Shown here one piece after another: positions 20,116 to 45,896 of a stretch of DNA of 64,000 nt. The notes under the pieces are model-generated. The model was not told where the DNA came from, did no database searches, and saw only the letters and a program-made list of their open reading frames with translations. The position numbers and the translations under genes were made by a program. Position 1 is the first letter of the stretch. Every line of letters starts with the position of its first letter. The stretch comes from a gamma proteobacterium symbiont of Ctena orbiculata (GTDB taxonomy: Bacteria; Pseudomonadota; Gammaproteobacteria; Chromatiales; Chromatiaceae), in assembly GCA_003058495.1 (NCBI GenBank), contig QBVC01000017.1, positions 1-64,000 on the forward strand. Direction: 5' to 3'.

Positions 20116-20994
20116 ATGATTGAGGCGATAAAGCTCTGTAAATACTACGAGGGCGTGAAAGCGGTGGACGGGGTCAGCTTTTCGATCCCACGCGGCGTCT
20201 GCTTCGGTCTGCTCGGTCCCAACGGCGCCGGCAAGACAACCACCGTGGAGATGCTGGAGGGGATCAAGACCCCAACCTCGGGAGAGATACGCTACAAGGG
20301 CGAGGCGCTGGGCAAGCGCTTCCGCAACGAGGCGGGGATCATGTTCCAGCACACCGCGCTGCAGGAGTATATCCGCGTCGACGAGGCGTTGAAGATGTTT
20401 CAGCAGCTCTATACCAATACCAGGCCCATCGAAGAGCTGGTGGAGATCTGTGCCCTGGAGGAGTTTCTCTCCCGGGATACGCGCAAACTCTCCGGTGGCC
20501 AGAAGCAGCGACTGCTGTTGGCGATAGCCCTGATCAACGATCCCGAGGTGGTGTTTCTCGACGAGCCCACCACCGGTCTCGATCCCCAATCGAGGCGCAA
20601 CCTGTGGCACCAGGTGCGCCGCATCAAGGCGGAGAACAAGACCCTGGTGCTGACCACCCACTACATGGAGGAGGCGTTCGAGCTCTGCGACGAAATCATC
20701 ATCATGGATCACGGTACCATCATCGCCCAGGGCAACCCGAAGGCGCTGTTGACCGACCATTTCGACAAATCGGTGATCACCCTGCCCCTCTCCGTCCTGC
20801 CCGACGACTTCCAGGCGGACGGCGCCTCCACCCTCCATCCCCAGGACGGCCACATGGAGATCCTCTCGGTGGACGTGGATGCCACCATACGCCACCTGGC
20901 GGAGCGGCAGATCTCTCTGCAGCAGCTGCAGGTGCGTTCGCCGACCCTGGAAGACCTCTTCCTGGAACTGACCGGACACCACCTGCGCACCTAG
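20116..20994 (+). CDS. ABC-2 type transporter ATP-binding protein
   Basis: 292-aa ATPase of the NatA/CcmA drug- and polysaccharide-export class. Seen: Walker A GPNGAGKTTT at about residue 37, Q-loop MFQHTALQEY, signature LSGGQKQR, Walker B VVFLDEPTTGLDP and the H-loop in TTHYMEEA. The C-terminal 70 residues are a regulatory extension. The partner permease follows, but a 294-bp palindromic element separates the two genes; the TAG stop here is 1 base from the element end. Confidence 0.95.
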   Translation: MIEAIKLCKYYEGVKAVDGVSFSIPRGVCFGLLGPNGAGKTTTVEMLEGIKTPTSGEIRYKGEALGKRFRNEAGIMFQHTALQEYIRVDEALKMFQQLYTNTRPIEELVEICALEEFLSRDTRKLSGGQKQRLLLAIALINDPEVVFLDEPTTGLDPQSRRNLWHQVRRIKAENKTLVLTTHYMEEAFELCDEIIIMDHGTIIAQGNPKALLTDHFDKSVITLPLSVLPDDFQADGASTLHPQDGHMEILSVDVDATIRHLAERQISLQQLQVRSPTLEDLFLELTGHHLRT

Positions 20995-20995
20995 G

Positions 20996-21289
20996 AGGGC
21001 CTGTTAACACGAATCCAATTGGCCCTGTTGTGCCTGAAAAAGCGCCAATCAAGGCGCGAGGAGAGAGGTTTGGTGATTCCAAATGAACGACGAGCAACGC
21101 CGAGTGGCGCTTTTTCAGGCGCACCCCAAGGGCACTTCCTTCGGGGCGCAACCCGAAGGGCTGGGGCTATTTTTCCGTCCAGCGGCGTTATCATTCGCTC
21201 ATGTAGCATAACTACACAACGCTCATTCTGCCTTGCTGGACGAAAAAATAGTCCCAGCAGGGCCGATTGGATTCGTGTTAACAGGCCCT
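20996..21289 (+). mobile_element. MITE-like palindromic element, copy 1 (inside ABC operon)
   Basis: 294-bp noncoding element with terminal inverted repeats: left end AGGGCCTGTTAACACGAATC... (20996-21026) and its complement at 21259-21289, about 31 bp with one mismatch. The internal part contains GCGCGAGGAGAGAGGTTTGG (from 21054) and CGTTATCATTCGCTCAT, both shared with copy 2. An extra segment of about 80 bp here (about 21100-21180) carries its own GC-rich hairpins. No transposase. No clear target duplication. It ends 4 bases before the permease ATG and begins 1 base after the ATPase stop. Confidence 0.85.
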
Positions 21290-21293
21290 TTTT

Positions 21294-22292
21294 ATGTCAT
21301 TTCGTCGCTTTCTAGCAGCCCTGCAAGCACGCAACCTGGAGTTTCTGCGCGACCGCACCGCCCTGGGCTGGAACCTGATCATGCCGGTGTTGATCGTCAT
21401 GGGATTCGCCTTCGCCTTCACCACGGGACAGGAGGAGCTCTACAAGGTCGGTCTCCACGGGGATTCCGAGCAGCATCACGACCTGGAGGCGTTTCTCGCC
21501 ACACGCTACGTGGACTATATCCAGGTGGACGACCTCGACAGGATGATCGATAAGGTGGACAGGCACCAGATCGATCTGCTGCTGGATCTCGAGGAGCGGC
21601 GCTACTGGGTCAACAGCACCTCCCCCAAGGGCTATCTGCTGGAACAGTTGCTGCTGCCCTACGGGCTGCAGCGGGAGGCGCTGAGCGGCTCGGAGATACG
21701 CTATGTGGATTGGGTGGTCCCCGGCGTCCTGGGCATGAATATCATGTTCAGCGCCCTGTTCGGTGTTGGCTATGTTATTGTCAGATATCGCAAAAATGGT
21801 GTCCTGAAGCGGCTGCGCGCAACCCCGCTCAGCGCCTTTGAGTTCATTTCGGCGCAGATTGCATCTCGCCTGCTGATGATCGTGGCGGTGACCGTGCTGG
21901 TCTATGTCGGCACCGACCTGGTGGTCGATTTCCGCATGGTCGGCTCCTACTGGCTGCTCCTTCTGATCCTCATTGTCGGCGCCCTCAGCATGATCAGCGT
22001 CGGTCTGCTGGTGGCGGCCCGGATCACCAGTGAAGAGGCGGCAAACGGGCTGTTGAACCTGTTGAGCTGGCCGATGATGCTGCTCTCCGGGGTCTGGTTC
22101 TCGCTGGAGGGCTCGCACCCATTGGTGCAAAAGCTGTCACTGGCCCTGCCCCTGACCCACATGGTGGACGCCGCCCGGGTGGTGATGATCGAGGGGGCGG
22201 GATTCACCGAGGTGGCATCCCAGCTGTTGATCCTCACCCTCTTTACCTTATGCTTTGTCAGCATAGGCTCAAAGACCTTTCGCTGGGAGTAG
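21294..22292 (+). CDS. ABC-2 type transporter permease
   Basis: 332-aa membrane protein. Seen: one N-terminal helix (about 22-45), an extracytoplasmic region to about 140, then five helices between 145 and 330, matching the ABC-2 permease fold. It is the partner of the ATPase at 20116. The ATG at 21294 follows directly after the palindromic element (GGCCCTTTTT-ATG), so no Shine-Dalgarno is present. Translation may depend on coupling or on element structure. The export substrate is not evident; neighbours do not include a hydrophobic product pathway clearly tied to it. Confidence 0.93.
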   Translation: MSFRRFLAALQARNLEFLRDRTALGWNLIMPVLIVMGFAFAFTTGQEELYKVGLHGDSEQHHDLEAFLATRYVDYIQVDDLDRMIDKVDRHQIDLLLDLEERRYWVNSTSPKGYLLEQLLLPYGLQREALSGSEIRYVDWVVPGVLGMNIMFSALFGVGYVIVRYRKNGVLKRLRATPLSAFEFISAQIASRLLMIVAVTVLVYVGTDLVVDFRMVGSYWLLLLILIVGALSMISVGLLVAARITSEEAANGLLNLLSWPMMLLSGVWFSLEGSHPLVQKLSLALPLTHMVDAARVVMIEGAGFTEVASQLLILTLFTLCFVSIGSKTFRWE

Positions 22293-44369: not shown

Positions 44370-45254
44370 CTAGCCACTCGGCTTAAAATTCAGTCTCAAG
44401 GTACGGAATGATTCGAACAGCGGACCGCTCGGCACCTGCAGTGGCGCAGCCTTATAGACGGCTGTCTCCACCGAGCGATCGAAGGCCGGGTTGCCGCTGC
44501 TTCTGATAATGCTGACGCCCCCTGGCACCACGTCCCCACCCGGTATCAGGCGTACCTGCACCACGCAGGAGAGCTCCTTACCCGCCGCCTGCCCCGGTTT
44601 CAACCAGTTCCGCTCGATCTGCTGTTTTATGACAGCCACGTAGCGATCGATCTCCCGGCTATTTTGCTCTGCCGCCAACTGCTCCTGCAAGGCCCGTTCG
44701 CGCTCGGCCTGGGCCGCGGCCTCCGCCTTGCGCCGCGCCTCGGCCTTGCGCTTGGCCTCCAGCTCGGCCTTTCGCTTGCGCTCGAGTTCCGCTTTGCGCT
44801 TCGCCTCCGCCTCTGCCTTGCGTTTCGCTTCCGCCTTGCGCTTCGCCTCCTGCTCGGCAAGCCGTTTCGCCTCCGCCTTCTTCTTCGCTTCCTGCTCTTT
44901 CTTCAACTGCGCCTGGCGCTTGCGTTCAACCTCCAGCTGCTTTTGCTCCGCCTTTTCCTTGGCGATACGCTTCTGTTCCAGCTGTTGCTGGCGCTTCTTC
45001 TCTTCCGCCTGTTTTCGCTGCAGCGCCTCTTCACGCTGCTTCTGCTTCTTGCGTTCCGCCGCCTTCTCCTTCTCCTTGGCCTGATCGAGCTGCTTGGCGT
45101 CGACGGTATGCGCCTGTACCACATTGGCCTTCGGCGATGCGGGTTTGCGCAGTTTCGACCAGTCAAAGCCGTAGATCAGAAAGACCACGATCAGGATATG
45201 CAGCAGGATGGCCAGGACCACCGAAACCGGATTTCTTTTGATAACCGATAACAC
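44370..45254 (-). CDS. tolA: Tol-Pal system protein TolA
   Basis: 294-aa inner-membrane protein. Seen: one N-terminal helix (about 11-30), a very long Lys/Ala/Glu-rich helical domain with KRKAEAEAKRKAE-type repeats from about 55 to 195, and a C-terminal globular domain with Cys (ELSCVVQVRLIPGG) that contacts TolB and Pal. GTG start at 45254. It lacks a clear Shine-Dalgarno because a palindromic element ends 4 bases upstream. Compared with E. coli TolA (421 aa) the helical domain is shorter. Confidence 0.95.
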   Translation of the reverse strand: MLSVIKRNPVSVVLAILLHILIVVFLIYGFDWSKLRKPASPKANVVQAHTVDAKQLDQAKEKEKAAERKKQKQREEALQRKQAEEKKRQQQLEQKRIAKEKAEQKQLEVERKRQAQLKKEQEAKKKAEAKRLAEQEAKRKAEAKRKAEAEAKRKAELERKRKAELEAKRKAEARRKAEAAAQAERERALQEQLAAEQNSREIDRYVAVIKQQIERNWLKPGQAAGKELSCVVQVRLIPGGDVVPGGVSIIRSSGNPAFDRSVETAVYKAAPLQVPSGPLFESFRTLRLNFKPSG

Positions 45255-45258
45255 AACT

Positions 45259-45472
45259 GGGGCCTGTCAACACCGATCCAAGGCCCTGCAGGGACCCTTT
45301 TTTTGTCCGGCAAGGCGGAATGAGCGATCGCCTGTCGCTCCAGATGAGCGAATGATAACGCAGCCGGGCGTTATTCGTCGTTCAATTGCAATCACCAAAC
45401 TTCTCTCCTCGCGCCTGCGTTGGCGCCTAGTTCTGGACATCAGGACCGAATGGATCACCAGTAACAGGCCCT
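45259..45472 (-). mobile_element. MITE-like palindromic element, copy 2 (inside tol operon)
   Basis: About 214 bp of noncoding DNA between tolR and tolA. On the minus strand it begins AGGGCCTGTTACTGGTGATC (from 45472) and ends GATCGGTGTTGACAGGCCC. Its interior shares GGCGCGAGGAGAGAAGTTTGG-like and CGTTATCATTCGCTCAT segments with copy 1 at 20996. The terminal inverted repeats are more diverged than in copy 1, and the extra 80-bp segment is missing. It starts at the tolR TAG stop and ends 4 bases before the tolA GTG. Confidence 0.8.
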
Positions 45473-45896
45473 ATGACTCCGGCGGCTCCGTGATCAGGCC
45501 GACACTGGGTGCACCGCCGGCCTGTAGAAGCACCATCGCCTCCACCACGCGCCCATAGGCGACACCCGTATCGCCACGCACCATAATCGGCGTCTTCGGC
45601 TTGTGCTTCAACACAGCCTGCACCCTTTTCACCAGGGTGTCGGGTTCAACGGGTTGATCCTTGTTCTGGCCGATATCGATATACATATCACCCCCACGAT
45701 CCACCGTCACCACCAGCGGCTCGTCCACCTCGTTCGGCAGCGGCTCCGCATCGGCCTGGGGCAGTTCCACCTTGACTCCCTGGGTCAGCAGCGGGGCGGT
45801 GATCATGAAGATCACCAACAACACCAGCATCACGTCGATATAGGGCACCACATTGATCTCGGACATGGGACGGCGGCGGTTCTTTTGACGACTCAT
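45471..45896 (-). CDS. tolR: Tol-Pal system protein TolR (ExbD family)
   Basis: 141-aa inner-membrane protein of the TolQR proton channel. Seen: one helix at about 18-38 (YIDVMLVLLVIFMITAPLL) with the essential Asp, then a periplasmic domain. The stop TAG is formed at the edge of the palindromic element (GAG-TCA-TAG-GGCC). It follows tolQ after 15 bp. Confidence 0.96.
   Translation of the reverse strand: MSRQKNRRRPMSEINVVPYIDVMLVLLVIFMITAPLLTQGVKVELPQADAEPLPNEVDEPLVVTVDRGGDMYIDIGQNKDQPVEPDTLVKRVQAVLKHKPKTPIMVRGDTGVAYGRVVEAMVLLQAGGAPSVGLITEPPES

Follow-up and report, generated by a model that had tools for sequence, protein, structure and literature searches.

A mobile element family with a Shine-Dalgarno-led open frame lies at the tolR-tolA junction of a Ctena orbiculata symbiont and is biased toward the sense orientation in tight operon junctions

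The window analyzed here is a 64,000-nucleotide stretch of contig QBVC01000017.1 from a gamma proteobacterium symbiont of Ctena orbiculata, and it includes a tol operon in which the identities of TolQ, TolR, TolA, and TolB are supported by Pfam. On the reverse strand tolR (45471–45896) is followed by tolA (44370–45254, GTG start), and between them lies an element copy on the same strand (45259–45472, body about 45260–45471), delimited by similarity search of the genome and by comparison with empty sites. This copy is a decayed palindromic non-autonomous mobile element (MITE). The TA used for insertion belongs to the tolR stop codon, so that the first base of the element completes the TAG; read against empty sites, the left TA of the target duplication is at 45473–45472, and the right one has decayed to CA (45259–45258). 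At 214 nt the copy is shortened relative to the 267, 294, or 321 nt of 56 of 84 complete copies, lengths that differ by 27, and its predicted fold has an energy of −89.6 kcal/mol. Within the element a Shine-Dalgarno-like GAGGAG (45405–45410, reverse strand) stands 6 nt before a TTG, from which a predicted mini-ORF (45267–45398, reverse strand) of 43 codons runs to a TGA and ends 12 nt before the tolA GTG. An earlier sequence-only reading had stated that this GTG has no Shine-Dalgarno sequence directly before it, which is borne out. A CCGGAG was found in the tolR tail (45477–45482, reverse strand), with the insert lying between it and the GTG; by its position it is likely the ancestral tolA Shine-Dalgarno sequence, now severed, and tolA would thus lack its own site because the insert displaced it, leaving the CGGAG behind.

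The undisturbed junction can be read in other members of the host genus, inferred to be Candidatus Thiodiazotropha. CGGAG is present in the tolR tail of all 22 genus genomes (as CCGGAG in 21 and TCGGAG in G018), where it likely serves as the tolA Shine-Dalgarno sequence, and at empty sites the likely tolA start overlaps the tolR stop or follows closely. Only three genomes are filled, namely the window's own (G000), G006, and G005, all at the same TA of the tolR stop. Shared place and sequence suggest that the G000 and G006 copies are one old insertion; the G005 copy is full and 92% identical to the second element of the window, at 20996. Because G015 and G019 resemble G005 at the tol locus yet are empty, two insertions are inferred, one in G000/G006 and one in G005, and the same TA was apparently struck twice independently. 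Repeated strikes on one TA would be unsurprising by themselves, since permissive sites number in the thousands and each genome contains many copies. The tol mini-ORF, which in G000 ends at the distance given above, ends 2 nt before tolA in G005 and overlaps its start as TAGTG in G006.

The second element is a sister copy on the forward strand (20996–21289), located between genes for an ABC transporter ATPase (20116–20994) and an ABC-2 permease (21294–22292), both on the forward strand and with Pfam support. The claim that the two units belong to one family was confirmed by two matching blocks of 78 and 79% identity (E values of 7e-18 and 8e-17), and both are indeed sense-oriented with 4 bases from the element end to the next start codon. 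Their placement had also been called identical; the slot is similar, but the tol copy lies in the TA of the tolR stop itself and the ABC copy directly 3′ of a complete TAG, with a junction that reads TA in G006 and GA in G000. For the ABC copy the predicted fold is a long hairpin from which side arms branch (−176.7 kcal/mol). Its GAGGAG (21058–21063, forward strand) leads a predicted mini-ORF of 81 codons from a TTG at 21070 (21058–21315 including GAGGAG, forward strand), which ends within the permease gene, overlapping its start by 22 nt in G000 and ending 12 nt before it in G006. The gene is present at this junction in 21 genus genomes, with complete element copies in two (G000 and G006), the permease start shortly 3′ of the stop in eight, and other sequence in the 90 nt 3′ of the stop in 11. 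One of these 11 (G013, locus L269) has a solitary element end placed precisely at the stop codon of the ABC ATPase gene, possibly a further insertion or a remnant. A 27-bp unit (CCCGAAGGAAGTGCCCTTGGGG on one strand) is seen within longer copies (20996–21289; L033 and L035) and also occurs solitary elsewhere in the genome, as if it were a separate small repeat.

The element has no transposase, is small, and is present in many copies, as is typical of a MITE. Of 84 complete copies, 70 have the form YTA|GGG...CCC|TAR, with YTA and TAR as the flanks; the target is CTAG, TTAG, CTAA, or TTAA (YTAR) at 163 of the 187 discovery sites of the survey described below and at 198 of all 226. TA is therefore duplicated and YTAR is the preferred target, and the identification as a MITE inserting at TA in YTAR with TA duplication is well supported. 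A target preference had been proposed from the two window copies; it holds for TA in YTAR but not for stop codons as such; TAG or TAA after a pyrimidine is itself YTAR. Stop codons accounted for 26 of 104 sites in an earlier subset of YTAR sites, compared with 14.3 expected from YTAR composition.

The terminal repeat AGGGCCTGTTAACAC is common to IS5-family elements on Enterobacter cloacae and Polaromonas plasmids (CP071789.1 and NC_007949.1), where it is likewise flanked by YTA and TAR and where the transposase is frameshifted in both records. The first 15 nt of the element are identical in loci L514 and L515, and the other end is identical in L514 with one mismatch in L515. From these ends, mobilization by an IS5-family transposase appears most likely. 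IS5-like copies in G007 (L290/L291) have similar, not identical, ends; the DDE_Tnp_1_2 domain was detected in one of 40 genomes (G007) and is absent from G000, and an IS5 N-terminal query matched in three of 56 genomes, none of them G000. No end pair enclosing a transposase, as expected of an autonomous copy, was found in the genus loci examined. An IS630/Tc1 parent was considered and is not supported, with DDE_3 in seven of 40 genomes, G000 not among them, and no matching end pair in 10 loci, one of which has a lone end (L280). Rfam gave 0 matches in the window, and at E up to 1 the only hit in 20900–21400 was mir-1824, at 22.4 bits compared with a gathering score of 90.

In the window's own genome (4.53 Mb, 51 contigs) 13 stretches match the tol unit, the unit itself and half-copies counted, and 65 stretches similar to the fuller 20996 copy are found among the matches listed at E up to 10, many being short end matches. 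The element was matched at E up to 1e-5 in 31 of 93 genomes, a number that includes G000 and every one of the 22 genus genomes, and a scan of named genomes for the exact terminal repeat returned at least 120 stretches. Among the matches listed most are from Candidatus Thiodiazotropha or lucinid clam symbionts, with Sedimenticola, Thiohalobacter, and other gammaproteobacterial MAGs also represented; one named carrier is Thiohalobacter thiocyanaticus (L149). Two closed genomes have 178 and 111 end matches listed, compared with 0 for the reversed pattern. Four plasmid records match the element, including copies on Azotobacter and Halomonas plasmids; phages gave no match to the element, and the terminal repeat was not found in exact form in viral contigs.

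Some individual loci have features of their own. Two element ends placed back to back form 20-bp palindromes at G000:C16:12175–12194, C5:77471–77490, and C34:63427–63446, which are possibly minimal remnants or terminators. In the sets L183/L071 and L317/L353/L461 the flanks are about 95–99.7% identical and the element sequences clearly different, which suggests gene conversion between copies or re-insertion. The tip of the second arm of L532:1438–1708 looks inverted compared with other elements, and the arms may be modular. Two element copies bracket one gene, presumably similar to an ApbE-type gene, in L188:3285–4892, possibly as a composite mobile unit. At G000:C22:23530–23559 (L030) a solo end repeat follows a partial second end just 5′ of a gene that, from its start, we take to resemble murA. 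Partial copies lie at the ends of contigs C1, C2, C15, C20, C35, and C102 of G020, and the element therefore probably breaks assemblies.

To survey placement, the flanks of each copy were joined to recreate the empty site, giving 187 discovery and 39 held-out sites that are independent by flank (226 in total). Regions were chosen by hand among the matches listed, and entry was limited to copies with both ends within 6 mismatches and with at least 400 nt of flank. Under these limits the tol copies of G000 and G006, which are decayed, do not count among the 226 sites and were examined individually; the ABC copy of the window (L014) was added by hand. Genes were called with the dicodon version of a purpose-built caller, which agreed with the window ORFs compared; a first caller was dropped because it called shadow genes. 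The sites comprise 165 intergenic positions, 48 in stop codons, and 13 called inside genes. Orientation counts leave out the latter together with copies of unclear orientation. In tandem gene pairs the ratio of sense to antisense copies was 20:1 at gaps of 30 nt or less, 8:1 at 31–60 nt, 20:6 at 61–120 nt, 14:10 at 121–250 nt, and 18:18 over 250 nt. Taken together, tandem gaps of up to 60 nt contain 30 oriented copies, and 28 of these, the window's ABC copy among them, are in sense orientation (p = 9e-7; 27 of 29 without the window's own). The 60-nt cut was fixed when the sites were first tabulated, at which point a bias at stop codons (20:5) was already known. The held-out set is small (39 sites) and gave ratios of 3:1 at 60 nt or less, 8:0 at 61–120 nt, 1:3 at 121–250 nt, and 4:1 over 250 nt. 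The choice of target does not obviously set the orientation, since, viewed in the orientation of the element, the target bases show approximate symmetry. Of the new results, this excess of sense copies in tight junctions is the most secure. According to the sequence-only reading, the shared placement of the two window copies would be due to chance if most other copies lay at random positions and orientations; this is true in part, with 178 of 226 sites outside stop codons, and orientation is even beyond 250 nt and 28:2 in tight junctions. The two causes it had offered, a preference for stop codons or a selected role, are each supported to some degree. YTAR is preferred and stop codons are hit above expectation, but the majority of sites lie elsewhere. 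Placement is partly due to target preference.

The sense strand of the element contains GAGGAG, 6 nt, and a TTG, followed in the consensus by a 64-codon frame that is open to the right end and has the TAR of the duplicated target as its stop. GAGGAG varies by 1–5% per position among 160 genus copies, and the end repeat by itself offers only AGG as Shine-Dalgarno material. Over 7,991 codons in the genus the six frames contain 45 (SD-TTG frame), 120, 325, 477, 578, and 66 stops; the frame with 66 is an antisense one, and its low count may follow from the palindrome. The SD-TTG frame is intact at 25 of 28 tight sense sites compared with 103 of 167 others (p = 0.0045, elements of 235–358 nt), an excess also obtained in the discovery set (p = 0.006) and with stratification by divergence (p = 0.0014), and three of the 28 have an early TGA. 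Selection on frame intactness at tight junctions is nevertheless not relied on here, because the nearest relatives elsewhere are also 81–84% intact and the excess disappears once copies are matched to them (p = 0.33). No codon-position signature was detected in orthologous pairs or in the class set; thus no peptide function is indicated, and selection on the peptide is unsupported. The gene called next downstream starts no more than 10 nt from the element at 11 of the 28 tight sense sites, and no 4-nt Shine-Dalgarno core separates the two. A search for sigma-70 promoters found none within the two window elements and one forward-strand site in tolR.

The frame is also present outside the genus. 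A core pattern of 36 nt was found in 19 of 369 class genomes and 15 of 271 genera, the own genus included, with 0 matches to the reversed pattern. Conservation of the SD and TTG across genera is partly circular since the core pattern includes both; both are also carried by the copies on the Azotobacter and Halomonas plasmids, which were identified through similarity to the whole element. Of 32 loci read, six lack the left end and three the right end, and 23 have both, four of the latter being genus copies. In the 19 complete non-genus elements, to which some genomes contribute more than one, the frame closes precisely at the right junction in 12 (in one by TGA), ends 10–21 nt early in five, reads on in one, and has an early stop in one. 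Stops were summed over 14 of these (731 codons), omitting one that is truncated and four that closely resemble either genus copies or one another, and number 3 in the SD-TTG frame and 21, 16, 20, 20, and 9 in the other frames, the count of 9 again belonging to a stop-poor antisense frame. Pairwise identity in the variable region of class-set elements is mostly 50–80%. In a 13-element alignment, both partners have changed and yet still pair at 65 of 95 predicted pairs, and the paired columns contain 232 double compared with 31 single changes, with 63 G-U among 1,159 paired cells. The small number of G-U pairs suggests that the palindrome is kept at the DNA level, through repair or the requirements of transposition, and not as an RNA fold.

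Insertions into operons are usually expected to be polar. What has to be explained here is a mobile element with known empty sites, an orientation bias, and a frame that is found again in other genera. After insertion in a stop codon the upstream gene would end in a TAG composed of the target TA and the G of the element; ribosomes would start at the SD-TTG of the element and terminate at the original stop position beside the downstream start. Translation through the element would limit Rho-dependent polarity, and coupling would be maintained although the old Shine-Dalgarno sequence is displaced, with ribosomes delivered to the next start. The act of translation would matter, not the peptide. 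That sense copies are translated via the SD-TTG frame, and hence persist in tight operon junctions, is in our judgment an even call made from sequence. We are more tentative, and lean slightly against, on the broader proposal that the MITE family evolved to be translationally transparent, keeping operon expression by means of its own ribosome-binding site, a peptide-independent frame, a target-supplied stop, and a rebuilt stop-start junction. The embedded SD-TTG frame makes a role in translational coupling plausible.

The sense bias would also be accounted for if antisense copies were polar through a hairpin resembling an intrinsic terminator and sense copies were merely tolerated, with an incidental mini-ORF. 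The antisense strand carries GCGCC-TTGATT-GGCGC followed by TTTTT (predicted −9.2 kcal/mol), and in the 20996 region all three terminator-like sites of a standard scan are antisense, compared with 0.5 expected on both strands. A laxer scan, however, finds stem-plus-T-run sites on the sense strand as well (at −5.0 and −10.8 for the consensus and at −19.1 for the copy at 20996), and in the tol region the standard scan has no terminator site, the lax scan giving −4.9 and −8.9 on the antisense strand. Since polarity of this kind explains neither why the frame length is found again in different genera nor how downstream genes with displaced Shine-Dalgarno sequences are translated, we regard it as unlikely, though worth serious consideration. 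YTAR preference and stop-codon composition account for much of the placement, and frame intactness is largely common to related copies, so that target preference with purifying selection against in-gene insertions might suffice, with orientation and frame as by-products of subfamily history; the 28:2 ratio in tight junctions as opposed to 18:18 in wide ones, at flank-independent sites, speaks against this reading, which we consider improbable. By analogy with the split ribosome sites of some phage T4 genes, the folded long hairpin might instead bring an upstream Shine-Dalgarno sequence beside the downstream start. The three filled tol sites have CCGGAG just 5′ of the hairpin and the start just 3′ of it, and AGGAGG adjoins the stem base of the G000 ABC copy, but the G006 ABC copy has no Shine-Dalgarno sequence there, and as the outer stem forms either way a split site predicts no orientation bias; we consider it very improbable. 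Translation through the element is favored over these because of the SD-TTG, the recurrent frame, the target-supplied stop, and the displaced Shine-Dalgarno sites. If it is correct, the MITE would bring a ribosome start with it and take its stop from the target. It would then illustrate how such elements can survive within operons like tol, and selection would act on translation as such instead of on any peptide. The rule on orientation is a simple one that lends itself to testing in many genomes.

Searches of the open-licence literature found no paper on MITEs in Thiodiazotropha, none on MITEs together with translational coupling and stop codons or on IS5 together with operons and ribosome-binding sites, and a general search on operon polarity likewise gave none. 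IS5-family insertion sequences have similar ends and encode a transposase, unlike the present element. In the sulfur bacterium Thiomargarita, MITEs that look unrelated to it are described in the available part of PMC4853749. The excerpts of PMC3049150 describe the pneumococcal BOX and RUP repeats as thought to be IS-mobilized and as occurring in operons, and some BOX elements form transcribed ORFs or supply stop codons; in contrast to the present element, the BOX-encoded frames treated there lack good Shine-Dalgarno candidates, and no orientation rule for tight junctions is described there. Correia/NEMIS elements of Neisseria are MITEs with TA ends and RNA hairpins, and the open frames of the 107-bp form are found fused to genes (PMC2229807, in part); their hosts and sizes differ, and the same portion describes no cassette of Shine-Dalgarno sequence, start, and stop for them. 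YPAL elements with open frames are also described, and in the parts of PMC2229807, PMC3049150, and PMC4853749 consulted no Shine-Dalgarno-led frame ending at a duplicated target is described. There is also a likeness to ERIC, a small palindromic MITE with TA ends and an open frame that is co-transcribed with its neighbors and whose orientation is crucial for its effect on mRNA (PMC2229807, same excerpts). The present element is alike in being a small palindromic MITE with TA ends and an open frame, but it is not a member of ERIC, which is 127 bp long and has enterobacterial hosts, whereas the present copies are mostly 267–321 nt in other hosts. The present element has the ends of IS5-family elements, an SD-TTG frame ending at the duplicated target, and an orientation bias in tight junctions. 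The features that appear to be new are the sense-strand GAGGAG-TTG frame, with the duplicated target as its stop, and the orientation bias in tight junctions.
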